NCBI GenBank assembly: GCA_934401915.1
Contig: CAKRSV010000002.1
Span: 310,001 to 374,000 of the forward strand
Direction of reading: 5' to 3'
Source: an uncultured Lachnospiraceae bacterium
Lineage (GTDB): Bacteria; Bacillota; Clostridia; Lachnospirales; Lachnospiraceae
DNA length: 64,000 nt
Shown here: positions 46,145-63,841 of the stretch, piece by piece
Layout of the letters: each line of letters opens with the position of its first letter
Numbering within the stretch: the first letter of the stretch is position 1
Translations under genes and position numbers: made by a program
The notes under the pieces: model-generated
The model's input: the letters and a program-made list of their open reading frames with translations, nothing else
Database searches by the model: none
Told to the model about the DNA's origin: nothing

Positions 46145-47786
46145 AGCAAAAAATGGGGGACAGACTGTAGATATAACTCTGCCGGCAACGGACATGGACA
46201 TGCAGTATTGCATGAAATGTATCGGGATAGAAGATATTGTACCGGTATGCTGTATCAGTGAGGTGTGGGATGAACCGTCCTATTTTGGATTCCTGAAAGG
46301 CCAGACAGTCAGCATGGACGAACTTAATTTCTTAGCCAGAAGGCTGGATGGAATGACGGAATACGAAAAAAGAGTGGTGGGTGTCTACAGCAGTGAAACA
46401 GGCATCCGGGAAATGAAACAACTGATCAACCTGACTTACAGCCTGCAGGGACTGTCCCTGCTCACAGACTTAACGGATGGAAACCGTGTCGGGCTGAGAC
46501 TTTATCTGGACCGGCATCTTGCAATCTCAGAAGAAGAAAAGAGCAAAATGGATTTTAACGCATATGCACAGAAGATTTTTTCAGAAGGAAAATGTAAGTT
46601 CCTGCCACATGGGATACTGGTAGATCAGGGATTCCAGATGGAGGAGGTCTATAACGGAAAAACCTTTCCAGAATACATCGACAGACCGGATGAAACCGTG
46701 GCGGTTTTATCTCTTGAAAATGAGGCAGGGGATAAGGAATACCTTTATCTTCCAACGGACATCAGTGCCATGGATAAGGTAAAGAAAAGACTCAACATCG
46801 CAGCATTTGCTGAAGGCATTGTGAACGGGATAGAAAATATCCGGCTGCCGGAAAGCATCCTTCCTTCCCCGGAAGATATGTGTATGTCTCTGCAGGGTGA
46901 TGTCCAGAAACTGACTCTTTTTAATGAGATGTGCCAGACCGTCAGCTGTTTTGATGAAGCAAAAATGGACCGGCTTGCAATGGCGGCAGGATTCGTGGGG
47001 ACAAGTGAATTTACTGATATCACTTACATCGCAAAGCATCTGGATGAATTTGAAATACATCCGCAGATACATACGGATAAAGAGTATGGGGAATTTCTGG
47101 TTAAAGAAGCGGGGATGTTTGAAGTTGATGAACTTCTCCTGCCGCATATTGATTATGCCGGGGTTGCCCGTGATAAAAGACAGGCAACGATGGCAGACAG
47201 CGGATTTATTCCAGAGGGCTTTGTTGGCACGCAGAGGGCGATCCATGAGTATCAGGAATATCAGGGGGAATTTGCCGATCTGCTTGAAAAAAACGGGATA
47301 CCCTGTGAAACGTTCTGCCTTTACAGTTCGCTGGCAGGGATGATGTATCAGGATGGAGAGGAGCAGGAAACGCTGTACCGGAGTGAACTGGCAGATTATG
47401 AGGAACAAATCCAGAAAGCCATCCTCAAAGAAAGGCATGTGGAAGAAGAGCCGAGGGGACTCATGCATTATTTTGACGGGAACAGACAGGTGGCTGCAAA
47501 AGTGATCAGTGCATTTCCGAGAGTGCAGAACATCCGGGGAGAACTGTTCGGAGTTCTGGAATGCAGTATCTGCCAGCCTCTGACACAAAATGAAATCTAT
47601 GAACTGAAAAATTTCTGGGACGGACAGATGAGTGACGGCTGGGGAGAAGGCTTTGAACAAAGACCAATCTATACGCAGGAGGGAGAACTGTATGTCAGTT
47701 TCTGGACACAGGAAAGACACTGGGGCGTCATGACGGAGGAAGAACTGGACAGAATCTGGAATCATGGCATGACGCAGACTCTGTAA
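46134..47786 (+). CDS. ArdA-like antirestriction protein candidate with duplicated domain
   Basis: 550 residues, acidic (many Asp and Glu), as expected for DNA mimics. Two similar units are visible. One (about 50-165) has MDELNFLARRLDGMTEYEKR and CKFLPHGILVDQGF. The other (about 275-370) has DEAKMDRLAMAAGFVGTSEF, YIAKHLDEFEIHPQI and HIDYAGVARDK...DSGFIPEGFVG, which recalls the ArdA C-terminal signature. The final 130 residues are an added domain. ArdA proteins block type I restriction enzymes when an element enters a new cell. ArdA is usually about 165 residues, so this is a large relative; assignment is moderate. Confidence 0.5.
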   Translation: MKIRAKNGGQTVDITLPATDMDMQYCMKCIGIEDIVPVCCISEVWDEPSYFGFLKGQTVSMDELNFLARRLDGMTEYEKRVVGVYSSETGIREMKQLINLTYSLQGLSLLTDLTDGNRVGLRLYLDRHLAISEEEKSKMDFNAYAQKIFSEGKCKFLPHGILVDQGFQMEEVYNGKTFPEYIDRPDETVAVLSLENEAGDKEYLYLPTDISAMDKVKKRLNIAAFAEGIVNGIENIRLPESILPSPEDMCMSLQGDVQKLTLFNEMCQTVSCFDEAKMDRLAMAAGFVGTSEFTDITYIAKHLDEFEIHPQIHTDKEYGEFLVKEAGMFEVDELLLPHIDYAGVARDKRQATMADSGFIPEGFVGTQRAIHEYQEYQGEFADLLEKNGIPCETFCLYSSLAGMMYQDGEEQETLYRSELADYEEQIQKAILKERHVEEEPRGLMHYFDGNRQVAAKVISAFPRVQNIRGELFGVLECSICQPLTQNEIYELKNFWDGQMSDGWGEGFEQRPIYTQEGELYVSFWTQERHWGVMTEEELDRIWNHGMTQTL

Positions 47787-48916: not shown

Positions 48917-49891
48917 TTGAACAGCATCATAAGCTGGGTTGGCGGCAAGAAGGCACTGCGCGATCTGATCTATTTGCGCATGCCGAAAAACTATGACCGC
49001 TACATAGAAGTATTTGGCGGTGGCGGCTGGGTTTTATTCGGGAAACCGCCGGATAAATGCATGGAGGTTTACAATGATTTTAATTCAAATCTTGCAAACC
49101 TCTTTTATTGTGTCAAGGAAAGACCAATGGCACTGCTTCGGGAATTGTCCTTCCTGCCGCTCAACTCCAGAGATGAATTTACAACGCTGCGGAAATTTCT
49201 GACCATGGAAGAATTTAAGAGTGAACATCTTGCAGAAGAATTAGAGATTGCAACGCACTTCTTAAAAGAACCGGAGGCGGCAGAAATCCGTGACATCCTC
49301 ATGGAGCGTGCCGCAGTAGGGGATGTGAAGAGGGCGGCGGCATTCTATAAGATTATCCGTTACAGCTATGGAAGCGGATGCACCTCTTATGGCTGCCAGC
49401 CTTTTGACATACGCAAAACCTTTACCATCATCTGGGAGGCAAACCGCAGGCTGAAGGATACCGTGATCGAGAATAAGGATTTTGAGGCACTCATCCGTCA
49501 ATATGACAGACCGAATGCCTTTTTTTATTGCGATCCGCCGTATTTTGAAACCGAAGGACACTATGAGGTGGTGTTCCGCAAGGAAGATCATGTGAGGCTC
49601 AGGGATACCTTAAAAGGCATACAGGGAAAATTCATGGTTTCCTATAACGACTGTGCCTATATCCGTGAGCTGTATCAGGACTTCCAGATTGAAGCGGTGA
49701 CAAGAATCAACAACCTTGCACAGAGGTATGACAACGGAAGTGAGTTCCCGGAAGTGCTGATTGCCAACTATGACATGGAGGAAAGGAAAAAAAGCATGCC
49801 GATGCAGATGAATCTGTTTGAACTGTACGGGGAACAGAAAACGGTCCGGTGGAAGGGAAAGGAGACAGAGGAAGAGCCACAGGACACATAA
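48917..49891 (+). CDS. DNA adenine (N6) methyltransferase, Dam/D12 class
   Basis: 324 residues starting at TTG (AGGAGG upstream). It has the N-terminal SAM-binding ISWVGGKKALRD, YIEVFGGGGWVLFGKP near residue 35, and the catalytic DPPYFETEGHYE near residue 205. These are the D12-class alpha-type order. No restriction endonuclease is adjacent, so it is an orphan methylase. It probably protects the incoming element from host restriction or marks replication. The recognition site cannot be deduced from the sequence. Confidence 0.92.
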   Translation: MNSIISWVGGKKALRDLIYLRMPKNYDRYIEVFGGGGWVLFGKPPDKCMEVYNDFNSNLANLFYCVKERPMALLRELSFLPLNSRDEFTTLRKFLTMEEFKSEHLAEELEIATHFLKEPEAAEIRDILMERAAVGDVKRAAAFYKIIRYSYGSGCTSYGCQPFDIRKTFTIIWEANRRLKDTVIENKDFEALIRQYDRPNAFFYCDPPYFETEGHYEVVFRKEDHVRLRDTLKGIQGKFMVSYNDCAYIRELYQDFQIEAVTRINNLAQRYDNGSEFPEVLIANYDMEERKKSMPMQMNLFELYGEQKTVRWKGKETEEEPQDT

Positions 49892-51417: not shown

Positions 51418-51831
51418 ATGCCAAAGGCAAAAACTGCCCAGAGCCGGGCAGAAACCACAGAACAGCACGCGCCATCCGGAGCAGGGAACAAAGAAAACAC
51501 CCCGCTCCAGTTTGATGTGCGCATCCAGTCCATCCGTCCGGGGGACAGCATCAAGGGAACGGCATCCGTAAACATCAACGGGGCATTTGCAATCCGGGGT
51601 GTCAAGATCATTGAGGGAAGCAATGGACTGTTTGTTTCCATGCCAAGCTATAAGGCTGGGAATGAGTACAAGGACATCTGTTTTCCTATCACGCAGGAAT
51701 GCAGAAAACAGCTCCATGAAGCAGTCATCGGAGCTTATGAGCAGGCAATTTCGCAGGGGCAGGATACGGTAGCAAAGCATCATGGGATGCAGGCACCGGA
51801 AGGACAGCCGATGGAGATGGCAGGAATGTAA
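51418..51831 (+). CDS. SpoVG-family protein, first copy
   Basis: 137 residues. After a 30-residue polar leader, residues 30-125 match SpoVG (FDVRIQSIRPGDSIKGTASV; GAFAIRGVKIIEGSNGLFVS; YKDICFPITQECRKQLHEAV). SpoVG is a nucleic-acid-binding regulator of sporulation and cell envelope genes. AAGGAGG lies upstream. The first of two paralogues flanking the pilin gene. Confidence 0.85.
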   Translation: MPKAKTAQSRAETTEQHAPSGAGNKENTPLQFDVRIQSIRPGDSIKGTASVNINGAFAIRGVKIIEGSNGLFVSMPSYKAGNEYKDICFPITQECRKQLHEAVIGAYEQAISQGQDTVAKHHGMQAPEGQPMEMAGM

Positions 51832-51910: not shown

Positions 51911-52141
51911 ATGAGAAATATGATGAAAAAAGCAGCACAGAATGTAAAGGCAGTTGCCGTGAGAGCAGGGATGTTAATGAAGGATACCAAGGGCGAGAAC
52001 TATGTGGATACGGCGGTCAAAATCCTGATCGCAGTCGTTCTCGGCGCACTGCTCCTGGCAGGTCTTTATGCACTCTTTGGGGATGTGGTGATGCCTACCC
52101 TTACCCAGAGGATTCAGGACATGTTCAACTATGCAGGATAA
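51911..52141 (+). CDS. Flp/Tad-like pilin candidate
   Basis: 76 residues. A basic N-terminal leader of about 26 residues ends KDTKGENYVDTAV, followed by one hydrophobic helix (about 35-55) and a short amphipathic tail, as in Flp-type pilins (cleavage after Gly, then an acidic residue before the helix). The prepilin peptidase gene lies 480 bases downstream and the pseudopilin at 58002 carries the same motif. It is probably the major subunit. TTGGAGG upstream. Confidence 0.7.
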   Translation: MRNMMKKAAQNVKAVAVRAGMLMKDTKGENYVDTAVKILIAVVLGALLLAGLYALFGDVVMPTLTQRIQDMFNYAG

Positions 52142-52201
52142 GGAACACCGGTCCAAGACAGGGAAACAGGAAAAATAACAGAATGATATGGAGGAAAACA
52201 G

Positions 52202-52618
52202 ATGCCTAGAAGAGCAAACACACAGACACAGCAGGAAGCAGTACAGGAAAATGCCGCAGTGCAGGCAAATACAGGGGCAGACATGCAGATGGAGGCTGCC
52301 ATCACAAAAACACAGCCGGAAAAGGGTGTCCTTGCCCTTGCCGATGTAAAAATCGGGGATTTCATGACGATCCGAAATGTCAGAATCAAGGAAGATGACT
52401 ACGGGCTGACGGTTGCCATGCCGAAAACAAAGGCAGGAGCAAATGAACAGTACAAGGATACGGTGTTCTTTGCCGACAGGGGAATCAAGGAAAGATTTGA
52501 CCAGACGGTACAGAAAGCGTATGAAACTTTTATGCACCAGCAGACGGATCTGGATGAGGAACCGGAGGAGGCAGAGGAGCTGGAACAGGAAGAAAGTGGC
52601 ATGAACATGGGAATGTAG
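52202..52618 (+). CDS. SpoVG-family protein, second copy
   Basis: 138 residues. The SpoVG-like core (ALADVKIGDFMTIRNVRIKE; DYGLTVAMPKTKAG; YKDTVFFADRGIKERFDQTV) is more diverged than in the first copy, with an acidic Glu-rich tail. The stop TAG is followed 2 bases later by the prepilin peptidase start. Its position in the pilus gene row suggests a structural or regulatory role tied to the element. Confidence 0.75.
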   Translation: MPRRANTQTQQEAVQENAAVQANTGADMQMEAAITKTQPEKGVLALADVKIGDFMTIRNVRIKEDDYGLTVAMPKTKAGANEQYKDTVFFADRGIKERFDQTVQKAYETFMHQQTDLDEEPEEAEELEQEESGMNMGM

Positions 52619-52619
52619 C

Positions 52620-53039
52620 ATGATCAGGCTGGCTTTCTTTTTTTCTGCCCTGTCTTTGGCGGCGGTCATGGATATGAGGACAAGGACCATCCCGGACTGG
52701 CTGGTCGTTCTGGTGGCACTTACCAGCATGCTGCCACCGGGACAGCCCAATCTTTTGGGAGTTCTTGCAGGACTGCCGCTGCTCCTCGCAGGGATTACCA
52801 TAGGAGGAATCGGCGGAGGGGATGTGAAACTCATGGGGGCATGCGGCCTGGTTCTTGGAGCGAGCCAAGCGCTTACGGGACTGTTTCTTGCATTGTGCCT
52901 GCTGGTGCTGTGGCATGCGGCAGGGAACATGGGCAGAAAAAAGAACAGAAAGAAACAAAAAGAGGAGAAGGAACAGGCATACCCGCTTGTTCCGTTTCTT
53001 TTTGCAGGAATGCTGATTGGTATCTGGATAGGAGGTTAA
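52620..53039 (+). CDS. Prepilin peptidase (TadV/CpaA type, A24)
   Basis: 139 residues with four hydrophobic segments. The two catalytic aspartates of the aspartic A24 family are visible: MDMRTRTIPDW near residue 20 and GGIGGGDVKLMGA near 65 (the GGGDxK motif). It lacks the N-methylation domain, as Tad-type peptidases do. It should cleave the leader of the pilin and pseudopilins encoded on both sides. Confidence 0.85.
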   Translation: MIRLAFFFSALSLAAVMDMRTRTIPDWLVVLVALTSMLPPGQPNLLGVLAGLPLLLAGITIGGIGGGDVKLMGACGLVLGASQALTGLFLALCLLVLWHAAGNMGRKKNRKKQKEEKEQAYPLVPFLFAGMLIGIWIGG

Positions 53040-53043
53040 AGAA

Positions 53044-53139
53044 TTGAAAAAGAAATTATTACTGGCAGGGATTGTGGCACTGCTTGCAGGAACTGTCATG
53101 GCAGCAAGAAAGAAAAAATATACGGAGACATCGAGATAG
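53044..53139 (+). CDS. 31-residue hydrophobic small protein
   Basis: TTG start 8 bases after GGAGG, sequence MKKKLLLAGIVALLAGTVMA then a basic, hydrophilic end. It looks like a signal-anchor or a single-helix membrane peptide. It sits between the prepilin peptidase and CpaB genes with gaps of 4 and 15 bases, so it is probably a real pilus-operon gene of unknown role. Confidence 0.5.
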   Translation: MKKKLLLAGIVALLAGTVMAARKKKYTETSR

Positions 53140-53154
53140 GAGGAGAAGAGAATC

Positions 53155-54003
53155 ATGAAACTGTTAAAAAACCGTACTGTTCTTGGGGTACTCTGCATTG
53201 CAGTGTCCCTGCTCATCTGTTTTGCAGTGACACCGCTTGTCAATGCCGGACTGTCCCAAAAGACCACAATCGTGCGTTTTGTAAAGGACGTTAAGGCAGG
53301 CGAAGAGATCAAAAAAGGAATGCTGCAGGAAGTCGAGGTGGGAGGTTACAACCTGCCCGAAAATGTGTTAAGGAGCATCACGGAGGCGGAAGGAAAATAT
53401 CTGACCGCGGATGTTTATGCAGGGGATTATATCGTAGCAGAAAAAGTAGCAGACGAGCCGGCTGCAGAAAATAAATACCTTTACAACTTAAACGGGGAGA
53501 AACAGGCAATCTCCATCACCATCAGTTCTTTTGCGGAAGGACTCTCCGGCAAATTAAAGAGCGGGGATATTGTGTCGGTCATTGCACCGGATTACCTGGG
53601 CAGCGGGGAGACCGTGATCCCGGCAGAATTAAAATATGTGGAGGTCATCGCAGTGACGGCAAAGTCCGGCTATGATGCCAATACACAGGAGCAGGAAGAG
53701 GAGAAGGAGCTTCCGTCCACCGTCACGGTGTTAGTCAGACCGGAGCAGAGCAGACTGCTGGCAAGGCTGGAAGCGGAGGGAGAAATCCATCTGTCACTGG
53801 TATACAGGGGAGACAGCCAGAAAGCCGCACAGTTCATTGAAGCACAGGATCTGGTGCTGGAGGAGCTTCTGGAAGAAAACGCAGAGGAAGAAGAGGTATC
53901 CGTTGTAAAAAATGAGGTGCCGAGGACAGGAGGGGAAGCGGATGCAGTGACGGCAGAAGAAACCTCGGCAGACGAGAAAAATGATACGGATATGGAGGAA
54001 TAG
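53155..54003 (+). CDS. CpaB/RcpC-type pilus assembly protein (SAF domain)
   Basis: 282 residues. An N-terminal membrane helix (about 7-28) is followed by a SAF domain (TTIVRFVKDVKAGEEIKKGM; YLTADVYAGDYIVAEKVA) and a RcpC-like domain (LSGKLKSGDIVSVIAPD; TVTVLVRPEQSRLLARLEAE). The acidic tail is disordered. CpaB stabilises the Tad secretion channel in diderms; here there is no secretin, as in other Gram-positive Tad systems. Confidence 0.82.
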   Translation: MKLLKNRTVLGVLCIAVSLLICFAVTPLVNAGLSQKTTIVRFVKDVKAGEEIKKGMLQEVEVGGYNLPENVLRSITEAEGKYLTADVYAGDYIVAEKVADEPAAENKYLYNLNGEKQAISITISSFAEGLSGKLKSGDIVSVIAPDYLGSGETVIPAELKYVEVIAVTAKSGYDANTQEQEEEKELPSTVTVLVRPEQSRLLARLEAEGEIHLSLVYRGDSQKAAQFIEAQDLVLEELLEENAEEEEVSVVKNEVPRTGGEADAVTAEETSADEKNDTDMEE

Positions 54004-54006
54004 TGT

Positions 54007-54816
54007 TTGAATTTCATGAAAAATTCTTTGTTCCAGAGAAATCTGGAGCAGGAAAGGGAAGAAGAGATGCCGGAAGAGGGAGGCGTGCTTGCCGTGTGGG
54101 GCAGCCCTTCCTCCGGCAAGACGGTGGTGTCTGTGAAACTGGCAGAGCATCTGGCAAAGAAAAAGAGAAATGTCATCTTAATCCTTGCGGATATGATCAC
54201 TCCGCCGCTGCCTTACTTATGCGCACCGTCAGACATTGAACAGGAAAGGTCGTTGGGGAGCATTCTTGCCGCATCCCATGTGACGGAAAACCTCATCAAG
54301 AAGAACTGCATGTTCTACCGGAAGAATGATTATCTTTCCATGGTCGGGATGTTAAAGGGGGAGAATGTGTTCACCTATCCGCCCTATGAAAAAGAGCAGG
54401 CGGCAGAACTGCTCCAGCTTGCAGCACAGATCGCACCGTATGTCATCGTGGACTGCACCAGCAATATCGCATCGGATATCCTGTCGGCGGTCGCATTGAT
54501 GGAGGCAGATACGGTGTTAAGGCTGGCAGGGTGTGACTTAAAATCCATCAGTTACTTATCCTCCCAGCTTCCACTGCTATCAGACCACAAATGGGATGCC
54601 GACAAGCAGTTGAAGGCCGTGTCCAATATCAGACAGCAGGAGGCAAGCAGCCACATGGAACAAATCCTTGGCAGTGTGTCGTTCCAGATTCCGCACAGCA
54701 GTGAGGTGGAAGCACAGTTTTTAGAAGGGGAACTGCTTGGGGAACTCGGCCTGAAGGAGAGCCGGGCATTCCGCAGGGAGATAGAGAAAATCAGCAGGGA
54801 GGTATTCGGGGTATGA
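54007..54816 (+). CDS. CpaE/TadZ-like P-loop ATPase
   Basis: 269 residues from TTG 54007 (GGAGG 8 bases upstream; ATG 54016 is an alternative). The P-loop AVWGSPSSGKTVVSVKLAEH near residue 31 begins a MinD/SIMIBI-type fold, with PYVIVDCTSNIASD as the Walker B-like strand near 150. There is no receiver domain. TadZ/CpaE proteins position the pilus apparatus. The P-loop lacks the deviant MinD lysine (KGGxxK), so it is a divergent member. Confidence 0.68.
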   Translation: MNFMKNSLFQRNLEQEREEEMPEEGGVLAVWGSPSSGKTVVSVKLAEHLAKKKRNVILILADMITPPLPYLCAPSDIEQERSLGSILAASHVTENLIKKNCMFYRKNDYLSMVGMLKGENVFTYPPYEKEQAAELLQLAAQIAPYVIVDCTSNIASDILSAVALMEADTVLRLAGCDLKSISYLSSQLPLLSDHKWDADKQLKAVSNIRQQEASSHMEQILGSVSFQIPHSSEVEAQFLEGELLGELGLKESRAFRREIEKISREVFGV

Positions 54817-56168
54817 AAAATAACCAGAATCTGTTCTTTTCCCCGGAGGAAAAGGGAAGGGCATTTTCGGATGTCTTAAAAGAGGTGCAGGAGTATATCT
54901 CCAGCAAATATTCCACGCTCATGGTGGAAGGTGGGAGCGAGGAAGTAAAACAGCAGGTCAAGCGGTACATTACAAAGTACATCTGTGACTACCGTATCAC
55001 GGTAAAGGGAAAAACACAGGAACAGTTGATCGATGACCTTTACACGGAAATGGCAGAGTTTTCCTTCCTCACCAAGTACATTTTTGGAACAGGGATAGAG
55101 GAAATCGATATCAATTCCTGGCGGGATATCGAGATACAGTACAATGACGGCAGGTGTGAAAAGCTGGAGGAACACTTCGAGTCCCCGGAGCATGCGGTCA
55201 ATGTCATAAGGCGCATGCTCCATGTGTCGGGCATGGTGTTGGACAATGCCTCCCCTGCGGTGTTAGGACATCTGAGCAAGAATATCCGAATCGCCGTGTT
55301 AAAGACGCCGCTCGTGGATGAAGATGTGGGGATTGCAGCATCCATCCGTATTGTCAATCCGCAGAGCCTGAAAAAGGAAAACTTTGTGGATGGCGGCACC
55401 GCAACGGGGGAAATGCTGGACTTTCTGGCAGAGTGCCTGCGTTATGGCATCAGCATCTGTGTCGCAGGAGCCACCAGTTCCGGTAAGACCACACTTGCAG
55501 GCTGGCTGCTTACCACCATACCGGATGGAAAGCGTATCTTTACCATCGAAAACGGCAGCCGTGAGCTGGCACTCGTAAGGGAAAAGGATGGAAAAGTGAC
55601 CAACAGTGTCATCCATACGCTGACCAGATACAGCGAAAATGAAAAGCAGAACATTGATCAGGACATGCTCCTTGATATGGCACTGCGTTTTAACCCGGAG
55701 ATCATCTGTGTCGGGGAGATGCGTAGTTCGGAGGCGTACACGGCACAGGAATCGGCAAGAACCGGACACACGGTGCTTACCACGATCCACAGCAACAGTT
55801 GTGAATCCACTTACAGCCGAATGAGGACACTGTGCAAGAGAAAATATGACATGGATGACGAGGTGTTGATGGACCTTGTAACGGAGGCATTCCCTATCGT
55901 GGTGTTCACCAAGCAGCTTGAGAACCGCAAGAGGAAACTCATGGAAATCATGGAGTGTGAGATCACGGCAGACGGAAAGCGGAAGTTCAACCCGCTGTAC
56001 CGCTATGAGATCACCGAAAACCGGATGGAAGGGGACCGCTTTATCATTAACGGCACGCATAAGAAGGTGTGCGGAATTTCCGAGAGCCTCAAAAAGAGAT
56101 TTTTGGAAAACGGCATGCCAAAAGATGTGCTGGAAAGAATTGAAAAAGGAGGGAAGAAAGTATGCTGA
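54813..56168 (+). CDS. CpaF/TadA secretion ATPase
   Basis: 451 residues. The VirB11/TadA-type ATPase shows Walker A CVAGATSSGKTTLAG near residue 218, the Asp box region TIENGSRELALV, Walker B ICVGEMRSSEAYTAQESA near 305 and the His box TGHTVLTTIHSNS. It hydrolyses ATP in the cytoplasm to drive pilus assembly and retraction. It overlaps the genes on both sides. In conjugative elements a VirB11-class ATPase could serve the mating channel; sequence and neighbours favour Tad. Confidence 0.93.
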   Translation: MKNNQNLFFSPEEKGRAFSDVLKEVQEYISSKYSTLMVEGGSEEVKQQVKRYITKYICDYRITVKGKTQEQLIDDLYTEMAEFSFLTKYIFGTGIEEIDINSWRDIEIQYNDGRCEKLEEHFESPEHAVNVIRRMLHVSGMVLDNASPAVLGHLSKNIRIAVLKTPLVDEDVGIAASIRIVNPQSLKKENFVDGGTATGEMLDFLAECLRYGISICVAGATSSGKTTLAGWLLTTIPDGKRIFTIENGSRELALVREKDGKVTNSVIHTLTRYSENEKQNIDQDMLLDMALRFNPEIICVGEMRSSEAYTAQESARTGHTVLTTIHSNSCESTYSRMRTLCKRKYDMDDEVLMDLVTEAFPIVVFTKQLENRKRKLMEIMECEITADGKRKFNPLYRYEITENRMEGDRFIINGTHKKVCGISESLKKRFLENGMPKDVLERIEKGGKKVC

Positions 56169-57091
56169 CATTACAGGTCATTGCCTGCATCGGGATCATT
56201 ACAGGGGCATTCCTGCTGTTCCAAATCCGGTTAAATGACTTTACGGGGAACATTTTCCACAGGCTTTTGGACGCACCGAAAGGAATCCGTGAGGAGATAC
56301 TGGAGGAAACCAAGCGCAGGAAAAAATCCTATTTCCGCAGGGAGATCGAGGAAGTACAGGAAATTTTGAAAACAACGGACAGGGAGGAGCTGTTCCCGCT
56401 TTTATGCACTGCATCCCTTCTGCTGTTTGCCGCAGGAGCAGCCATTGCGGTCATGATCGGAAATGTTTTTCTGGTTCCGGTGCTGGCATGCGGATTTTTA
56501 TTTCTGCCGTTCTGGTACATCAGGCTGACCGCATCCCATTTCAAAAAGGATGTGTCATCGGAACTGGAAACCGCACTGTCTATTATTACAACGGCGTATC
56601 TGCGCAGTGAGGACATTCTGACTTCGGTGGAGGAAAACCTTGAATATTTAAATCCGCCGGTCAAGACCGTGTTTGCAGATTTTGTGTCAAGAATCCGGCT
56701 CATTGATTCAGACCTTGAGGCAGCCTTGGAGGAGCTTAAGGGAAAGATTGAAAATGATGTGTTCATGGAATGGGTGGATGCCTTAAAGTCCTGCCTGTAT
56801 GACCGGTCATTAAAGACAACACTGACACCGATCGTGGCGAAACTGTCGGACATGCGCATCGTGAATGCAGAGCTGGAGTATCTGGTATTTGAACCCAGAA
56901 AGGAATTTATCACAATGGTGGTGTTGGCAGTGGGGAATATCCCGCTGTTATATTTTCTGAACCAGTCCTGGTACGATACGCTCATGCATACCATCCCCGG
57001 ACAGATTATGCTGGCGGTTACCGGCGCAATTATATTTGTTTCCACGGCATGCGTCATAAAACTGACAAAGCCGATTGAATACCGGACATAA
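56162..57091 (+). CDS. TadB-like type II secretion F-domain membrane protein
   Basis: 309 residues. Two helices near 3-20 and 75-120, a central helical cytoplasmic F domain (KDVSSELETALSIITTAYLR; SRIRLIDSDLEAALEELKGK) and two C-terminal helices (250-305) match TadB. It forms the inner-membrane platform with TadC for the ATPase encoded next to it. Overlaps the CpaF gene by 7 bases. Confidence 0.85.
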   Translation: MLTLQVIACIGIITGAFLLFQIRLNDFTGNIFHRLLDAPKGIREEILEETKRRKKSYFRREIEEVQEILKTTDREELFPLLCTASLLLFAAGAAIAVMIGNVFLVPVLACGFLFLPFWYIRLTASHFKKDVSSELETALSIITTAYLRSEDILTSVEENLEYLNPPVKTVFADFVSRIRLIDSDLEAALEELKGKIENDVFMEWVDALKSCLYDRSLKTTLTPIVAKLSDMRIVNAELEYLVFEPRKEFITMVVLAVGNIPLLYFLNQSWYDTLMHTIPGQIMLAVTGAIIFVSTACVIKLTKPIEYRT

Positions 57092-57105
57092 GGGGGAGGG
57101 ATAAA

Positions 57106-57978
57106 TTGAAAATCGTACTGATAGTTGTATTCATCCTGACGGCATGCGGACTGTTCCTTCTGCTGTCGGGCATCTTAAAGCTGCCGACACTGCGGACCGG
57201 CAGGGCGATGATGCAGTCAGGGAAGAAAGAAAAGAAACTGCAGAAAACACTGGATGCGTTCTACATGGACGGAGCGGCATACTTAGGAAAATACATCGGG
57301 ATGAATGCCTACAAAAAAAGCAGGATGCAGAATGTCCTTAATGCGGCAGGACTTAAGATGACACCGGAAACCTATATGGCGTATGCCTATCTGAAGGCAG
57401 GGAGCATTTTTCTCCTGATCCTTCCGGCACTGCATGTATTTCCTCTGCTTGCCATCCTGCTCGTGCTTTTAGGAGTCATAGTCTACTATAAGGAGACAAG
57501 AAAAGCAGAAGAGCTGGTAAGGGAGAAAAGGGAACAGATCGAGGGGGAACTGTACCGTTTTGTTTCCACCATCACACAGGAGCTGAAAAACAGCAGGGAT
57601 GTACTTTCCATGCTGGAGCATTATAAGGAAAATGCCGGGGAGATGTTCCAGAAGGAACTGGACATTGTGTGTGCCGACATGCGCTCCAGCAGCTATGAGG
57701 CAGCACTCACCCGTTTCGAGGCAAGGCTCAATTCCCCGCAGCTCTCCGATGTGGTCCGCGGACTGATCGGTGTGTTAAGAGGAGATGACGGTGCAGTGTA
57801 TTTCCAGATGCTCACACACGACTTCAAGCAGGCAGAACTGCAGAGGTTAAAGGCAAAGGCGGCAAAAATCCCGCCGAAAATCCGTGTCTTTTCTTTTGCC
57901 ATGCTCTTATGTTTCCTTGCAACCTATTTTGCCATCATCGGCTATGAGATCATAAAGTCCATGGGAACACTGTTCTGA
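57106..57978 (+). CDS. TadC-like type II secretion F-domain membrane protein
   Basis: 290 residues starting at TTG. N-terminal helix (2-22), helices near 95-125, the F domain (EGELYRFVSTITQELKNSRD; VCADMRSSSYEAALTRFEAR; LSDVVRGLIGVLRGDDG) and a final helix near 262-283. Partner of the TadB-like protein in the pilus platform. Confidence 0.85.
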   Translation: MKIVLIVVFILTACGLFLLLSGILKLPTLRTGRAMMQSGKKEKKLQKTLDAFYMDGAAYLGKYIGMNAYKKSRMQNVLNAAGLKMTPETYMAYAYLKAGSIFLLILPALHVFPLLAILLVLLGVIVYYKETRKAEELVREKREQIEGELYRFVSTITQELKNSRDVLSMLEHYKENAGEMFQKELDIVCADMRSSSYEAALTRFEARLNSPQLSDVVRGLIGVLRGDDGAVYFQMLTHDFKQAELQRLKAKAAKIPPKIRVFSFAMLLCFLATYFAIIGYEIIKSMGTLF

Positions 57979-58001
57979 TAAAAGCGCAGGAAGGAGAAAA
58001 A

Positions 58002-58406
58002 ATGAAGCGGATCTATAAAATCATGAGGGACAAAAAGGGGGAGGGATATATCGATGCGGCAGTCGTTGTATTCTGCGTGATGTTTGTCATTGCCCTTGGC
58101 GTCAGGATATTCCCGGTTTTTATCACGAAGATACAGCTTGACAACTTTGCAGACGAGCTGGTGCGGGAGGCAGAGATCAGCGGCAGGGTTGGAAGTGAGA
58201 CAACCGCAAGGCAGAGAACCTTGGAGGAAAAAACAGGGATACATCCAGCCGTAAGCTGGTCTGGGACCGGAAAAATCCAGTTGAATGAAGAGGTGACGGT
58301 AACACTGACGTTGCAGAAAGACCTCGGACTTTTTGGGAAATTAAGGTCGTTCCCGGTAACCATAAGGGCGAGGGCATCGGGAAAGAGTGAGGTGTATTGG
58401 AAATGA
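58002..58406 (+). CDS. Pseudopilin (TadE/DUF4320-like)
   Basis: 134 residues. A short basic leader ends RDKKGEGYIDAAVVV, followed by one hydrophobic helix (about 20-42) and an extracellular beta-rich domain (SWSGTGKIQLNEEVTVTLTL). The leader motif matches that of the pilin candidate at 51911. DUF4320 proteins are minor pilins of such elements. AAGGAG upstream. Confidence 0.75.
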   Translation: MKRIYKIMRDKKGEGYIDAAVVVFCVMFVIALGVRIFPVFITKIQLDNFADELVREAEISGRVGSETTARQRTLEEKTGIHPAVSWSGTGKIQLNEEVTVTLTLQKDLGLFGKLRSFPVTIRARASGKSEVYWK

Positions 58407-58951
58407 GAAAATGCTATCAGAGCTTCAAAAGACTTCTGACAGGGCAGGAGGGAAGCATGGCCCCGGCTGCTGTGGCGGCAGCGATAGCCATGCTCCTTAT
58501 CATCCTTGGAGTTTCCGAATACATGCGCCTTGTCATCACGGCAGCCGGGATTAAGGATGCCATGGAATCTGCCGTGGTTTCCGTGGTAAATGACAACTAC
58601 AATGAAGTTTATCATGGTGTCAGGGAAGGATATGCCGCAGGATATGAGCCGGACGATACGGGATTTACGGCATCCGTGGACCATGGGGATATCTATGGCA
58701 GGATGTGTTTTCTGCTTGGACTGGAAGAGGATGGGAACAGTTATGTCCGCTATAACAACAGCGGTGAGCTGGAGTACAGGCTCAAAAATCTTTCCGTGGA
58801 CATCCACAACACGGCTCTGGCATCGCCGGGAGGCACTTATTATGCGGATGCAGAGGTCACGATGGAAGTGCCTGTGCGTTTCGCAGGAAAAATCTTATCG
58901 AATATGTCGGTCAGACTGAAGGTGAGGGCGGCCTACCGGGAGAAATTTTAG
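58403..58951 (+). CDS. TadE/TadG-like minor pilin or pilus-associated protein
   Basis: 182 residues from ATG 58403, overlapping the previous stop (ATGA). A leader with GQEGSMAPAAVAAAIAM precedes one hydrophobic helix (about 22-45), then an extracellular domain (YYADAEVTMEVPVRFAGKIL at the end). The pattern agrees with TadE/TadG proteins. It is followed by a 112-base gap with a CCATAGA/TCTATGG hairpin at about 58989-59014. Confidence 0.7.
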   Translation: MRKCYQSFKRLLTGQEGSMAPAAVAAAIAMLLIILGVSEYMRLVITAAGIKDAMESAVVSVVNDNYNEVYHGVREGYAAGYEPDDTGFTASVDHGDIYGRMCFLLGLEEDGNSYVRYNNSGELEYRLKNLSVDIHNTALASPGGTYYADAEVTMEVPVRFAGKILSNMSVRLKVRAAYREKF

Positions 58952-59063
58952 TAACATGTTACAGATATCGTAAGACTTATTACATTTCCATAGACTTTCC
59001 AGACGTTCTATGGTAGCGTGTGAACTACGAAAATCAATCAAAAAAGCATAAGGAGGGAATGCC

Positions 59064-59609
59064 ATGAAAGATAAGACAAAAAAGTGGCTGGCAGTCGCAG
59101 GACTTCTAGCAGTATGTGCGGTGCTTGTGTTTGGAATCAGCAGGGCGCTCTACCATGAGCCGGACAGGGAGGCACAGGTCGTGGAGAGAGAATCGGAGGA
59201 GACAGAACTTTTTGTGGAGACAGAAACACCGGAACCGGCTCCGGCAGAAAGCACAGAAGCAGAGACGGAAGAGCCGCTTGTGATCGAGACGGAGACAGGA
59301 ACTTCCGTAAATGACAGGGAGCAGGAAATTCAGGAAACCCCGGAGAAAACGGAAGCGGAAAAGCCGAGTGAGCCGCCTGCACTGTCTGAGGGAACCGCCA
59401 CGGACCAGCCGGATACACCGCCGTCCTACGAGGAGGAAAAACAGGAGGAACCGGCTCCGGCAGAGAACCAGACACCAAAGACAGGTGATACCAAAGACGG
59501 CATGGTATATGTGGAAGGCTTCGGATGGATTACCGATGAAGGGGAAGGCTCAGGCACCTACGCAGATGACATGTATGAAAATGGCAATAAAATCGGAATC
59601 ATGGACTAA
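59064..59609 (+). CDS. Membrane-anchored Glu/Pro/Thr-rich stalk protein (DUF6550-like)
   Basis: 181 residues. N-terminal anchor helix (about 9-28), then about 110 residues of low complexity with acidic Glu-Thr-Pro repeats, including a repeated EPAPAE block, and a short conserved C-terminus (DGMVYVEGFGWITDEGEGSG TYADD). It looks like a surface stalk or wall-spanning protein. The C-terminus resembles DUF6550 proteins of ICEs (uncertain). AAGGAGG upstream. Confidence 0.65.
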   Translation: MKDKTKKWLAVAGLLAVCAVLVFGISRALYHEPDREAQVVERESEETELFVETETPEPAPAESTEAETEEPLVIETETGTSVNDREQEIQETPEKTEAEKPSEPPALSEGTATDQPDTPPSYEEEKQEEPAPAENQTPKTGDTKDGMVYVEGFGWITDEGEGSGTYADDMYENGNKIGIMD

Positions 59610-59673
59610 GTTGGTGACAAGAAATGTTGTTTGATATAAACTGATAACAAGCGGACAAGGAGGCTCTTGGATT

Positions 59674-60288
59674 ATGTACAAACAACGTATATCATATGCA
59701 GATTATGTGGAAGAGGTAGAAAGATTATATAAAATTGAAAGAAGAGAGATTTATTTTGGTTTTGTAATCCGAGATTTTATACAATCGATCCTTACAGAAA
59801 GTGAACAATTGGTAGCAGTTTGGGATAACAAAGGATACAAGGATGATACCAAAAATCCACTTCATAAGCGTAAAAATTATGCGGATTCGCATAGCTTGCA
59901 GGATTTTATTATCGTTCCGGAACAATATAGCTATACGAATACTACAAAACCATATGTTTCGATTGAGCTGAAAAAACCCAATTTGGAAAATTATCAAGGG
60001 TTAGAATTGGGAAAAAACAAAAAACAGATAGAAGCAGAGTTTGAATATTGTGATTTTATTATTTTGACAGACTGTGTTACATGGATGTTCCTAAAAAAAG
60101 ATGAACCTGTAAAAGATGAAAAAGTTGTTTGTCTGATACAGGAGGGAAAATGGTTACAAATGGAACAAAGGGATTCCAATAACGAGCGTATGGGGAACAT
60201 TCATATGAAGGAACCAGAGCAATGGGATGATTTGGTTAATACGATTAGAACATTTGTAGCAGAAGCCAAAAAACAGAGAAAAGAATAA
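59674..60288 (+). CDS. PD-(D/E)XK nuclease-like cargo protein
   Basis: 204 residues, noticeably richer in A+T than all neighbours. The sequence order SLQDFIIVPEQ, then PYVSIELKKPNLENYQG, then QIEAEFEYCDFIILTDCVTW fits a restriction-endonuclease-like core (D...ExK) as in type I HsdR N-terminal domains. There is no helicase or methylase part. It has AAGGAGG upstream and its own terminator, so it is an inserted unit inside the pilus operon. It could be a defence or exclusion nuclease; this is inferred from motif order only. Confidence 0.45.
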   Translation: MYKQRISYADYVEEVERLYKIERREIYFGFVIRDFIQSILTESEQLVAVWDNKGYKDDTKNPLHKRKNYADSHSLQDFIIVPEQYSYTNTTKPYVSIELKKPNLENYQGLELGKNKKQIEAEFEYCDFIILTDCVTWMFLKKDEPVKDEKVVCLIQEGKWLQMEQRDSNNERMGNIHMKEPEQWDDLVNTIRTFVAEAKKQRKE

Positions 60289-60298
60289 TGTGTTAGTG

Positions 60299-60332
60299 AA
60301 AAGCAGATTCGTAAAAACGGTCTGCTTTTTTT
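60299..60332 (+). terminator. Intrinsic terminator after the cargo gene
   Basis: AAGCAGA (60301-60307) pairs with TCTGCTT (60321-60327), extended by outer A-T pairs and a run of T's. It would stop the pilus transcript ahead of the secreted protein gene unless read through or a new promoter follows. Confidence 0.8.
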
Positions 60333-60346
60333 GTGAGGAAAAAGAG

Positions 60347-62116
60347 ATGAAGTTATTAAAACAAGTAGTATTGCTTCTTGCAATTATGCTTGCCATGGCA
60401 ATGCCGGTATCGGTTTATGCAGCCGGGGAAGGGAACATCGACAATGGCGGTGGAGGTATGGGAGCAGGAACGGGAACTAATTTTTGGAGCAGCCACGATG
60501 AGGGTGTGCGCGTAACGGTAATCAGAGCCAGTGATGGTGCAGTTGCATCAGCATCCATTGACCTTACCAACAAGCATCCGACTGATATCCGGGTGCATTT
60601 TGGAAAAGTAAGCAAGACTTCCTACAGGAATGGCGCAGGACTTTCTGCAAGGATGGGAGGCTATACATTTTATAATCCAGCACAGTCCCTGCCACAGATT
60701 ATCAGTACTTCAAGAGGAGGGGCGAACCTTACAGCCATCAAACAGTACTTTACGGACGAGCAGGTGATCAGAGCCATTGCAGGATATGTCGGCATGGATT
60801 TCCAGACGCTGACAAACGGAGAGTACAAGCTGTTATTAGAGCCAATCGCATATGTGACTTTTGAGGGAGTCCGGACTGCGTTTACCGCCACGGAAGCAGC
60901 AAAATACAATCAGTTAAGGGGCGGTTTGTTGCGAAAGAAAATGCCGTCCCTTTCCCATAAAAACCTGCCGCTTGCCATGTTTTTGGAAACATCGGATTTA
61001 GGGTATCCGGCGTGGAGCGGTTCTAAGACAGAGAAAGCAAATGATGAGGATATCATCCGCGCATTAGGACTTGGCATCGTGCGGTTTAATGAGGTGATCA
61101 CACCGGAAGTCATCGAAGCGGACTATGAATACCGTGTGGATACGGATGTGATAACGGCGGTCACAGTCAGTGGAGGACAGAGCGATCCAGACAACTCCGT
61201 CACCGTGACATTTTCTATCCTGGGAAGAAGCTACAAGGTTGAAAACGTGTATTACCCGGAGGATGGACAGCAGCTCGTGTGGGTAAAATGGCATACCCCA
61301 TCCACAGAACAGCATATCACGATTAGCGTGACCGCCAGCGGAGGCAGTGCATCCGTGAGCCGGGGAACCATCACGGCGAACATTGTGGATCTGGATGACA
61401 ATCCACCGCCCAATCCTGTTGCAGATGACAGAAATGATGGATACCGGAAAGAGAATGCAGTGATGCCTGTAAATCCAGAAAAGACACAGGCGGCATGGAG
61501 TGTCTGGAAAGCCAAGTGGAAGGAAAAATGGGTATGGCACAGTGACTGGAACTGGGAGTCAGAGGACCATTCGGCAAGCTGTGAGGCAGGATGCACACAG
61601 AGCCATGGACACTGGGAGGATGATGGCGAGTATGTGGATGAAGGCTGGTGGGAATTTGAAGAGAAACATTATTTGGCATCCCTGACTGCGGATATGCATC
61701 TGGTCACCGATGAAAAGGCACCGACAGCAAATGGCATAGTTACAAAAAGCGGGTACGGTGTGAATGTCTCCCTGAGTGTAAGGGCATCAAGCAGCCAGAC
61801 ATCTGCAACAACGGCACCGCAGACGGCAGTCAGTTATTTCCCGGAATTTTATTACGAAACCTACTGGCGGCTTTTAGAGAGAACCCGAAATGGATACAGT
61901 GCGGTCTTTGAATTTAAGAATAATGAGTATTCCACTTATTACCGGAGGACACATTTCACACCGGTCTGGATGCCGGACGGGGAGTACCGGGTATATACTT
62001 ATCTGCTTGACTGTTGGACACCGGATGGAATGCTTTCCATGAACCTGTCAGACGCTGTGCAGATATCGGGAAGCCTGTGGGATGACTGGCATATCGCACC
62101 ACAGAATGTGAGGTAG
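60347..62116 (+). CDS. Large secreted protein of the ICE
   Basis: 589 residues from ATG 60347. A clear signal peptide (MKLLKQVVLLLAIMLAMAMP...VYAA) is followed by a Gly-rich stretch, a globular domain (about 45-260), Ser/Thr-rich beta domains (about 265-355; VTVSGGQSDPDNSVTVTFSI) and a Trp-rich segment near 385-410 with a Cys/His cluster (SCEAGCTQSHGHWED). There is no membrane anchor or LPXTG at the end. Position between pilus genes and VirB2/TrbL genes suggests a surface or pilus-tip protein for mating contact. Confidence 0.7.
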   Translation: MKLLKQVVLLLAIMLAMAMPVSVYAAGEGNIDNGGGGMGAGTGTNFWSSHDEGVRVTVIRASDGAVASASIDLTNKHPTDIRVHFGKVSKTSYRNGAGLSARMGGYTFYNPAQSLPQIISTSRGGANLTAIKQYFTDEQVIRAIAGYVGMDFQTLTNGEYKLLLEPIAYVTFEGVRTAFTATEAAKYNQLRGGLLRKKMPSLSHKNLPLAMFLETSDLGYPAWSGSKTEKANDEDIIRALGLGIVRFNEVITPEVIEADYEYRVDTDVITAVTVSGGQSDPDNSVTVTFSILGRSYKVENVYYPEDGQQLVWVKWHTPSTEQHITISVTASGGSASVSRGTITANIVDLDDNPPPNPVADDRNDGYRKENAVMPVNPEKTQAAWSVWKAKWKEKWVWHSDWNWESEDHSASCEAGCTQSHGHWEDDGEYVDEGWWEFEEKHYLASLTADMHLVTDEKAPTANGIVTKSGYGVNVSLSVRASSSQTSATTAPQTAVSYFPEFYYETYWRLLERTRNGYSAVFEFKNNEYSTYYRRTHFTPVWMPDGEYRVYTYLLDCWTPDGMLSMNLSDAVQISGSLWDDWHIAPQNVR

Positions 62117-62119
62117 GAA

Positions 62120-62587
62120 ATGGGATATGAGAGAATCCAAAAGCCGGAAGGACTGCTCTACCATTACACTCGAAAAGAAAATCTGGAATCCATCTTAAGG
62201 GATGGAAGGATACGGAAATTTTGTGACAGGGAAACATGGTTCACAAAATCCCTTGCAGATACGCTGCGGCTTATGTCACTCACGGTGATGCAGGAGGGAG
62301 CAGCTTATTATGATGCGAGGGGCAGGCTGCAGCGTTACCCGGCATTTGTGCCGGAGGATTATGTAGTTTTAGAACTTACCCCGCGCTACCAGAGCGGGGA
62401 ATGGGTGATCTGGAATCAGGAACTTCCACCTAATGCGCCGGAGTCCGTAAGGGAGCTTGCGGAGGAGTTCAGCCACTTAAAACTCGGATACCGTGGAGAT
62501 TTAAAGTTCTGGGAGAATCCTGTCATTTATGAGATGACAGACCTTTTGGAAGAACCGGAGCAGACCAGTGAAATGAAAATGCAGTAA
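62120..62587 (+). CDS. Possible ADP-ribosyltransferase-like protein, 155 residues
   Basis: Starts 3 bases after the previous stop. The N-terminal GLLYHYTRKENLESILRDG followed by TWFTKSLADTL resembles the opening of ADP-ribosyltransferase-like folds (DarT, KptA and related: H-Y-T near the start, then a W-F strand). The rest is alpha/beta and ends in an acidic, Met-rich tail. There is no signal peptide. Assignment is weak, and no DarG-like antitoxin is adjacent. Confidence 0.35.
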   Translation: MGYERIQKPEGLLYHYTRKENLESILRDGRIRKFCDRETWFTKSLADTLRLMSLTVMQEGAAYYDARGRLQRYPAFVPEDYVVLELTPRYQSGEWVIWNQELPPNAPESVRELAEEFSHLKLGYRGDLKFWENPVIYEMTDLLEEPEQTSEMKMQ

Positions 62588-62616
62588 AAAAACAGAAAAA
62601 AGGAAAGGAAGATCAG

Positions 62617-62955
62617 ATGAAGAAAAAGAAATGGATGATGATGGCAGTGATGGTGCTTGCACTTACGATGATGTTTGGAACTACAGTATATGCGTCAGGA
62701 AAAGGGGACGTGGCAGGAGCAATCGAGGGTACATGGCAGGATGCCTCCGCACAGATCAAGACAGTAGTCAATAAGGTGGTGTTCCCGGCAATCGACCTGA
62801 TACTTGCCGTATTCTTCTTTGCAAAGCTGGGTACTGCATACTTTGATTACCGAAAACACGGGCAGTTTGAATGGGCGGCACCCGCAATCCTGTTTGCGTG
62901 TCTGGTGTTTACGCTGACGGCACCGACCTATATCTGGAAAATCCTTGGCATATAG
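62617..62955 (+). CDS. VirB2-like/DUF3852 conjugation protein
   Basis: 112 residues. A signal peptide (to about residue 26, TTVYASG) and two hydrophobic helices (about 52-70 and 85-108) separated by a short DYRKHGQF loop, the layout of TrbC/VirB2 pilins and of DUF3852 proteins on Firmicutes ICEs. It should be part of the mating channel. AAAGGAAGG upstream. Confidence 0.72.
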   Translation: MKKKKWMMMAVMVLALTMMFGTTVYASGKGDVAGAIEGTWQDASAQIKTVVNKVVFPAIDLILAVFFFAKLGTAYFDYRKHGQFEWAAPAILFACLVFTLTAPTYIWKILGI

Positions 62956-62980
62956 GGGATGGTGAGAAAGAAGGTGTCAG

Positions 62981-63841
62981 ATGTTTATATTTGATTTTGT
63001 TGCGGAAACCGTACTAGACCAGATTATCGACTGGCTGTATGGGAAGATCGTTGGATTTCTCAATGATTTTTTTGCAATGATGAACAATATGGGGGTGGAA
63101 TTGTTTGACCTGCCGTGGGTGAATGCAATTACCACTTTTTTTAGTTGGCTTGGCTGGGCATTGTTTGTGGTAGGGCTGGTGGTCGGAGCTTTTGAATGTG
63201 CCATAGAGTATCAGGGAGGAAGGGGCAGTATCAAGGATACTGCCTTAAACTATGTCAAGGGATTTATGGCGGTCAGCCTGTTTTCCATTCTTCCGGTCAA
63301 CTTATACTCCCTAAGTGTGTCGCTGCAGAGTTCCTTCGGATCGGCATTATCCGGCATTACAGATGCGGAAAGCATCGGGATGACTGCACAGCAGGTGCTT
63401 ATGTCAGCCACCATGCCGGGAGTGGGGAATCCGATCCTGCAGATATTCTGTGCCGTGATGATGGGGTATGCCGTGATAAAAGTGTTTTTCGGAAACCTGA
63501 AAAGAGGAGGCATCCTGCTCATACAGATCGCAGTTGGAAGCCTTTATATGTTTTCTGTTCCAAGAGGATATATTGACGGTTTTACCCAGTGGTGCAAGCA
63601 GGTCATTGGAATCTGTCTCACCGCTTTCCTGCAGTCCACCATGCTCACGGCAGGACTCATGATCTTCAAGGACCATCCTCTGCTTGGTCTGGGTGTCATG
63701 CTTTCCTCCACGGAGGTGCCGAGGATTGCCGGACAGTTCGGACTGGACACCAGCACAAAGGCAAACCTGATGAGCGGAGTTTATGCAGCGCAGACAGCCA
63801 TCAACATTTCAAAAACGGTTGTCAAAGCAGTGGCAGCATAA
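62981..63841 (+). CDS. TrbL/VirB6-like conjugal transfer membrane protein
   Basis: 286 residues with about six hydrophobic segments (near 5-30, 48-72, 92-112, 150-172, 178-195, 210-232). The general pattern matches the TrbL-like proteins of Gram-positive conjugation systems, which form the membrane core of the channel. It follows the VirB2-like gene by 25 bases. Specific subfamily not certain. Confidence 0.72.
   Translation: MFIFDFVAETVLDQIIDWLYGKIVGFLNDFFAMMNNMGVELFDLPWVNAITTFFSWLGWALFVVGLVVGAFECAIEYQGGRGSIKDTALNYVKGFMAVSLFSILPVNLYSLSVSLQSSFGSALSGITDAESIGMTAQQVLMSATMPGVGNPILQIFCAVMMGYAVIKVFFGNLKRGGILLIQIAVGSLYMFSVPRGYIDGFTQWCKQVIGICLTAFLQSTMLTAGLMIFKDHPLLGLGVMLSSTEVPRIAGQFGLDTSTKANLMSGVYAAQTAINISKTVVKAVAA

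Follow-up and report, generated by a model that had tools for sequence, protein, structure and literature searches.

The 64,000-nucleotide stretch analysed here (the window; positions 310,001 to 374,000 of contig CAKRSV010000002.1, assembly GCA_934401915.1, from an uncultured Lachnospiraceae bacterium) carries part of an integrative and conjugative element (ICE) in which genes of a Tad/Flp (type IVc) pilus lie within the conjugation operon. The first-pass annotation had proposed this arrangement for 51911-63841, and the open reading frames (ORFs) are indeed there: all lie on the + strand, with intergenic gaps of -10 to 115 bp, in a run that continues into DUF3852 and TrbL_5, the latter a membrane protein of type IV secretion systems (T4SSs). 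Gene order is as listed below, with a 204-aa protein between DUF6550 and Big608 and a 155-aa protein between Big608 and DUF3852.

51418-51831, + strand: SpoVG-like protein, upstream of the pilin (PF04026, 98.5 bits)
51911-52141, + strand: Flp/Tad-type prepilin (DUF6133) with cleavage-like site G/ENYVD (PF19629, 139.7 bits in a scan from 51896; motif aligned in relatives)
52202-52618, + strand: second SpoVG-like protein (PF04026, 47.3 bits)
52620-53039, + strand: prepilin peptidase of the A24 family (Peptidase_A24, PF01478, 45.2 bits)
53155-54003, + strand: CpaB/RcpC (PF16976, 60.2 bits, above cut-off; NCBIfam TIGR03177, 69.8 bits, just short of its cut-off of 71)
54007-54816, + strand: CpaE/TadZ-like P-loop protein (sub-threshold AAA_31/CbiA matches, and position)
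54813-56168, + strand: CpaF/TadA motor ATPase (T2SSE, PF00437, 89.1 bits; top PDB sequence matches are CpaF chains)
56162-57091, + strand: TadB platform protein (profile match to chromosomal TadB, 96%; no usable Pfam match)
57106-57978, + strand: TadC platform protein (profile match to chromosomal TadC, 97%; T2SSF 16.6 bits, cut-off 25.2)
58002-58406, + strand: DUF4320 pseudopilin with site G/EGYID (PF14208, 133.5 bits; motif count)
58397-58951, + strand: TadE/G-like membrane protein, weakly matched candidate for a second pseudopilin (PF13400 (Tad), 10.9 bits, cut-off 22.3)
59064-59609, + strand: DUF6550 protein that accompanies the Tad genes (PF20187, 111.8 bits; co-occurrence)
60350-62116, + strand: Big608, secreted protein with an Ig-like domain, likewise accompanying the Tad genes (co-occurrence, given below; structure model)
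62617-62955, + strand: DUF3852, possible VirB2-like subunit (PF12963, 160.9 bits; TrbC 15.3 bits, cut-off 27.9)
62981-63841, + strand: TrbL_5 (VirB6-like) T4SS membrane protein (PF19511, 472 bits)

Most of the first-pass gene names hold, some more firmly than others. Against PDB sequences, the window's CpaF matches CpaF chains best (8rjf, 8rkd and 9e24; up to 75.6 bits, residues 46-417), compared with 50.2 bits for VirB11-like chains; it missed the cut-offs of both NCBIfam models, that for VirB11 (121.6 bits, cut-off 249.95) and that for the TadA family (105.6 bits, cut-off 373.15). The platform proteins were assigned by profile-profile comparison (hhalign) with the gene pairs that lie behind six chromosomal clostridial CpaF genes, which paired TadB with TadB at 96% and TadC with TadC at 97%, the cross-matches reaching 62% and 8%. 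Of the two pseudopilins claimed, the first is a DUF4320 protein above its family cut-off and the second has the sub-threshold match listed above; likewise, the TrbL-like neighbour is unambiguous, the resemblance of DUF3852 to VirB2 is weak, and the CpaE-like name draws on position and sub-threshold P-loop matches. The identical gene order recurs across many clostridial families, which speaks clearly against a chance cluster.

The prepilin cleavage site is unusual. The usual Flp motif is G/XXXXEY, with glutamate at +5 (PMC5696575; here and below, cited papers are represented by the available parts of their text), and in the Tad pilins and DUF4320 pseudopilins of the window's group aspartate replaces it five residues past the cleavage glycine. 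Aspartate stands at +5 in 20 of the 21 pilins aligned and glycine at -1 in 19 of them; among DUF4320 pseudopilins, 50 of 65 carry the cleavage-site pattern as defined in this analysis. No secretin was found among the scanned window proteins, and the secretin family PF00263 was absent from all six carrier genomes tested, whereas it was detected in 6 of 14 control genomes. The first-pass remark that a missing secretin fits a monoderm host is thus borne out, such an absence being expected for monoderms.

To follow the block across elements, we anchored a survey on TrbL_5 rather than on Tad. Of 291 class genomes, 20 contained a PF19511 match, in 17 cases above cut-off. We assembled 100 TrbL_5 rows from 19 loci, a further 80 from a scan of genome contigs (the best 80 of 339 confirmed) and the window itself (L- and G-numbers below label rows and genomes). 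Counting a row as Tad when at least one of seven Tad genes lay upstream, 53 rows were Tad, 24 instead had a giant surface protein, none had both, nine had Big608 or DUF6550 alone and 14 had nothing. With six duplicates removed the figures were 49, 23, 0, 9 and 13 (n=94), the complete set of seven Tad genes being in view in 21 of the 94; when at least 9 kb upstream was also required, they were 35 Tad, 17 giant and six with neither (n=58). Tad accompanies the same TrbL_5 module over much of Clostridia, the co-occurrence that the first-pass annotation had suggested looking for, and its position beside TrbL_5 is constant over many families, including Desulfosporosinus and Pelotomaculum. Two TrbL_5 elements, L130 and L059, lie in contigs titled Thermoplasmatales archaeon and Nitrospirae, probably through binning errors; the TrbL_5 of the Thermoplasmatales-titled L130 is identical to that of the clostridial L032.

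The giant protein occupies the slot of the Tad block. In the rows read gene by gene (L066, L076, L078, L081 and L100, the last by its 3' part), its gene precedes DUF3852. It is secreted and about 1,500-2,500 aa long where the ORF is whole, with 19, 10 and 14 SpaA stretches in the three proteins scanned, and the elements that encode it retain TrbL_5 and VirB4 with no CpaF in view. Big608 follows the Tad block closely, being present in 51 of 53 Tad rows and in none of the 24 giant rows; it is not a shortened giant protein, as hhalign gave 0.1% against the giant's C-terminus. On a TrbL_5 tree (quick method, 89 rows, excluding the six duplicate loci and the partial or short L041 and L044-L047), Tad is spread across deep clades, and giant proteins form one clade plus the distant L042, so that two changes explain the Tad/giant pattern; L042 and L043 are long branches of unsure placement. 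Where the 3' end is whole (L066, L075, L076, L078, L080, L081 and others), the giant proteins end in LPxTG[YF] immediately before the stop codon, with neither membrane anchor nor charged tail behind this sortase-like motif.

A third kind of surface device appears in one element. L031 and L114 are sister rows amid Tad rows on the TrbL_5 tree and have neither Tad nor the giant protein. L031 encodes a class C sortase (231.6 bits, cut-off 160) and an LPXTG pilin with a GramPos_pilinD1 domain, which by their position probably belong to the element; L135 shows more pilin-like genes upstream, the L114 contig ends in a sortase fragment, and the genome of L031 (G036) gave no CpaF match. Of the other rows that lack both devices and have 9 kb or more in view upstream, L112 and L117 contain Big608 or DUF6550, a SpaA protein follows TrbL_5 in L109, and nothing was recognised in L045 and L121.

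The block is also joined to a second T4SS family. TrbL_4 (PF19597) gave 14 matches above 240 bits among the 291 class genomes, and a Tad block of the window's type accompanies it in L185, L195, L196 and L197, with VirD4 in view in three. Here the two gene sets are interleaved: in both L195 and L197 the DUF6133 pilin gene immediately precedes TrbL_4, and in L195 it directly follows a VirB2-like gene (19.1 bits, below cut-off). A fifth TrbL_4-linked block, in G041, is broken. L243 has a divergent Tad-like row behind TrbL_4, consisting of SAF and T2SSE-like proteins (both below cut-off) and two proteins of about 300 aa, and L242 and L244 show a weak CpaF match like that of L243.

Plasmids extend the picture. 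A tblastn search with the window's CpaF found Terrisporobacter and Clostridioides difficile plasmids with a full Tad block upstream of genes for VirD4, pLS20_p028 and VirB4. The Bacillus subtilis plasmid pLS20 itself resembles the window in having a CpaF-type ATPase in its conjugation operon: behind a thioester adhesin gene come a T2SSE ATPase annotated tadA, two proteins in the place of TadB and TadC and a DUF4320-like protein (17.2 bits, cut-off 25), followed by VirD4. Unlike the window, its annotated row has no peptidase or CpaB, and its DUF4320-like protein shows no visible cleavage site. The neighbours of the pLS20 ATPase could not be firmly identified as TadB and TadC (best matches TadC 70% and 17%, DUF4320 32%, pilin 27%; at most 64% against the chromosomal TadB/TadC pairs), and we keep this identity as a lead. 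Among 12 plasmids, taken from the 60 records listed by even steps among 382 with a p028 relative, two have a CpaF row, both together with an adhesin (L140, L149), six have an adhesin-like gene without CpaF (L141 by profile alone, L142, L144, L145, L147, L148) and four have neither (L143, L146, L150, L151), less than 10 kb upstream being in view for L147, L150 and L151. Separately, the Thermoanaerobacterium plasmid pMU3262 (L183) carries two CpaF-type genes and two CpaB/CpaE-like sets in about 17 kb.

In a CpaF tree of 65 rows (quick method; ORFs below 340 aa or 80 bits excluded), 35 rows from TrbL_5 elements, counting L198, whose contig ends behind DUF3852, form one clade (support value 96). 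Its sister group consists of four TrbL_4 elements and the two p028 plasmids with a full Tad block (100); TrbL_5, TrbL_4 and p028 rows join a Subdoligranulum plasmid in a group of 42 (97). Next come nine Tad loci of clostridia, and pLS20-like and chromosomal CpaF proteins stand apart. The comparison with chromosomal Tad that the first-pass annotation had called for places the element rows together and away from their host's own Tad. Recent capture of a host locus can be set aside: the two chromosomal CpaF proteins of G001, the Roseburia inulinivorans genome nearest to the window among those compared, are 29% identical to the window's and lie far away in the tree. Pairwise distances, which include pieces of cut or extended ORFs, correlate with those of TrbL_5 at r 0.68-0.85 for CpaB, TadB, TadC, DUF4320, TadG, DUF6550 and Big608, and with those of VirB4 at 0.60-0.86, the CpaE value not being significant; TrbL_5 against VirB4 gives 0.65. 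The Tad genes are under purifying selection, CpaF much like TrbL_5: the ratio of nonsynonymous to synonymous change (dN/dS) between the window and L053, where synonymous changes are partly saturated, is 0.04-0.12 for Tad genes (CpaF 0.04), 0.42 for the peptidase and 0.047 for TrbL_5.

What the genomes display plainly is a Tad block of conserved content and order whose slot in TrbL_5 elements is exchanged with surface proteins. From this gene-level evidence, we think it probable that the conjugation apparatus of this ICE includes a Tad (type IVc) pilus, encoded by the element itself, which attaches the cells of a mating pair to each other; because unrelated surface devices alternate within one T4SS family, an attachment role is favoured over that of cargo. 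The first-pass annotation had offered two roles, bringing mating cells together and spanning the thick wall. The former is the best supported reading, as other elements fill the slot with a giant SpaA-type surface protein or, in a single case, with sortase-built pili; the latter gained no separate support. In such a machine, the A24 peptidase would cut the DUF6133 prepilin, CpaF with TadB and TadC would polymerise the pilin, and the filament would pass the wall without a secretin, perhaps guided by CpaB, with Big608 and DUF6550 as possible tip or wall-docking parts. The filament would bind a recipient and may draw it close, since the Caulobacter CpaF is described, in the available text, as powering both extension and retraction, and the TrbL_5/VirB4/VirD4 channel would then pass the DNA.

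Several observations weigh against this reading. The T4SS can do without Tad, as one TrbL_5 clade shows, and the giant clade represents essentially one replacement event plus L042. The exclusion of Tad and adhesin is not general, as pLS20-like plasmids combine an adhesin with a CpaF row; a strict exclusion across all elements is contradicted by them. Four of the 14 TrbL_4 matches have no Tad in reach, and two more are short contigs. The correlation with TrbL_5 distances falls to r 0.43 for CpaF and to 0.13 (not significant) for CpaE, and in a second copy, found in G142, a stop codon interrupts CpaF while TrbL_5 is open. Finally, the nine related clostridial loci (L186-L194) show no recognised T4SS gene within about 10 kb, and this Tad type therefore seems to exist outside conjugation too. 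Most of these nine have DUF4320, and some a weak Big608 match.

The block could instead be cargo, a colonisation pilus that helps the host to stick to mucus or other cells and that owes its place in the operon to expression. Tad pili are known colonisation factors, as in Bifidobacterium breve (PMC5696575), and both the Tad-less TrbL_5 clade and the related loci without nearby T4SS genes are in keeping with this. The first-pass annotation treated absence from close relatives as a sign of cargo, and such absence was found in part; because an adhesin-like protein occupies the slot in that clade, which holds surface proteins rather than being empty, we take the block to have been replaced there rather than lost as cargo. 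With the fixed position beside TrbL_5 over many clostridial families, Desulfosporosinus and Pelotomaculum included, and Tad genes interleaved with T4SS genes in TrbL_4 elements, cargo appears unlikely.

We also consider it improbable that the Tad machine is a part of the T4SS channel itself, with CpaF in place of VirB11 and a pseudopilus aiding the movement of substrate or pilin through the wall. The NCBIfam scores do favour VirB11 over the TadA family, albeit both below cut-off, and the pLS20 ATPase has been named virB11 (PMC11730352). However, PDB sequences rank CpaF first, the ATPase comes with a pilin, a peptidase and a pair of platform proteins, and giant-type TrbL_5 elements keep TrbL_5 and VirB4 with no visible CpaF, which argues that CpaF is not a core channel ATPase. 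A pilus for some other step, such as taking up DNA, excluding rival donors or sensing a surface and so switching on transfer, has precedents in the tad locus that serves transformation in Micrococcus luteus (PMC5696575) and in the surface-sensing Tad pili of Caulobacter (PMC11730352), but is very improbable here, as the genes next to the block include no recognised competence or sensor gene and the swap with adhesin-like proteins indicates attachment.

A broader version of the attachment reading can be put forward more tentatively, with a little less than even confidence: a large group of monoderm elements, comprising TrbL_5 and TrbL_4 ICEs and pLS20-type plasmids, may use a motor-driven type IVc sex pilus, the 'VirB11' of pLS20 being the motor of a reduced form, and Tad pilus, sortase pilus and giant SpaA adhesin may be cassettes swapped before one DNA-transfer core. 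The gene evidence points to a widespread pilus solution for Gram-positive mating, for which pLS20 offers a ready-made test, and pilus versus adhesin forms a natural exchange series in which the costs and gains of each attachment mode could be compared.

Known systems offer partial parallels. Tad/Flp loci such as Caulobacter cpa and that of Sinorhizobium meliloti pSymB (L182) likewise hold pilin, A24 peptidase, CpaB, CpaF, TadB and TadC in one block, together with CpaE and pseudopilin, for which the window has a CpaE-like protein and the DUF4320 candidate; the window differs in lacking secretin and CpaD (L182 has both), in lying within a conjugation operon and in the aspartate at +5. The enterococcal and lactococcal LPXTG adhesins PrgB and Asa1 share the proposed step, donor-recipient attachment, but are wall-anchored proteins rather than assembled filaments. 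The plasmid R64 belongs to Gram-negative hosts, and its pilus is of type IVb. The thin pilus of this IncI plasmid is a type IV pilus on a conjugative element and is said to aid mating-pair formation (PMC12102498), whereas the window has Tad pilus genes in a monoderm ICE. A linear plasmid of Cutibacterium acnes, also Gram-positive, carries a tad locus next to genes of the VirB4/TcpC/FtsK-like kind (PMC5696575); it is actinobacterial and confined to one plasmid group, the available text describes no adhesin exchange, and its authors call the link between pilus and conjugation unclear. With R64 and this plasmid, the closest published cases include a suspected plasmid of C. difficile, a contig that encodes CpaB, CpaE and CpaF and carries par genes (PMC5337907).

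Mating-pair formation by Gram-positive donors has been called largely elusive (PMC11730352), and a 2025 T4SS review states that conjugative pili are not encoded by Gram-positive systems and that VirB11 homologues are universally missing from them (PMC12857230). A VirB11 relative is, however, said to be carried by pAW63 (PMC9673590), so this universality was already contradicted in print. A literature search that most subscription papers lay beyond found no paper on DUF4320, DUF3852, DUF6133 or DUF6550, and none of the listed titles and abstract openings assigned Tad to a conjugation system of Firmicutes. Tad together with conjugation was thus already known; the reading of the Tad pilus as an attachment cassette that monoderm ICEs and plasmids can exchange is new as far as our searches reach.

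Upstream of the block lie the left end of the element and further annotated genes.

44519-44560, + strand: left end of the ICE (att region), in the last codons of a TrmA/RlmD-family RNA uracil-5-methyltransferase gene (43289-44560)
46134-47786, + strand: ArdA-like antirestriction protein (PF07275, 33.4 bits, cut-off 27)
48917-49891, + strand: D12-class adenine methyltransferase (PF02086, 100.6 bits)

G001 holds a 99% copy of the element, with identity starting near window position 44,519, inserted behind a different methyltransferase gene of the same TrmA/RlmD family. Different genes of one family upstream in two genomes point to a mobile element that targets such gene ends, and insertion is thus site-specific at a gene end, with the element present elsewhere. 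The stretch shared by the two paralogues encodes an identical last 13 residues. The remaining transfer genes lie past the end of the window and are seen through the G001 copy: a MobP3/MobL relaxase (MobP3, 399.4 bits), a DUF3991/Toprim protein, VirD4 (PF02534, 145.7 bits), an NlpC/P60 protein and a piece of VirB4 (PF01935, 35.3 bits), where the ORF is broken. The integrase gene would lie outside the window; none was recognised in the G001 stretch, which stops at a contig end. Neither megablast of the Tad block nor tblastn of TrbL_5 gave a match against plasmids. The R. inulinivorans copy (L051, from strain DSM 16841, and L131, in G001) has frame breaks in CpaE, TadB and VirB4, which are either draft-assembly errors or real decay.

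Some smaller observations concern the block's surroundings. Scans for promoters (16 found, 14.4 expected) and terminators (21 against 13.2) gave nothing usable. The model of Big608, named after its longest ORF of 608 aa, has a mean predicted local distance difference test score (pLDDT) of 73 and a predicted template-modelling score (pTM) of 0.49, and apart from a CARDB-like Ig-like domain at residues 245-348 contains no nameable fold. The 204-aa protein beside it (59674-60288) has a sub-threshold HsdR_N match, and its profile matched just five ORFs. The two SpoVG-like genes flank the pilin gene, and SpoVG-like genes also lie upstream of the giant gene in several relatives.

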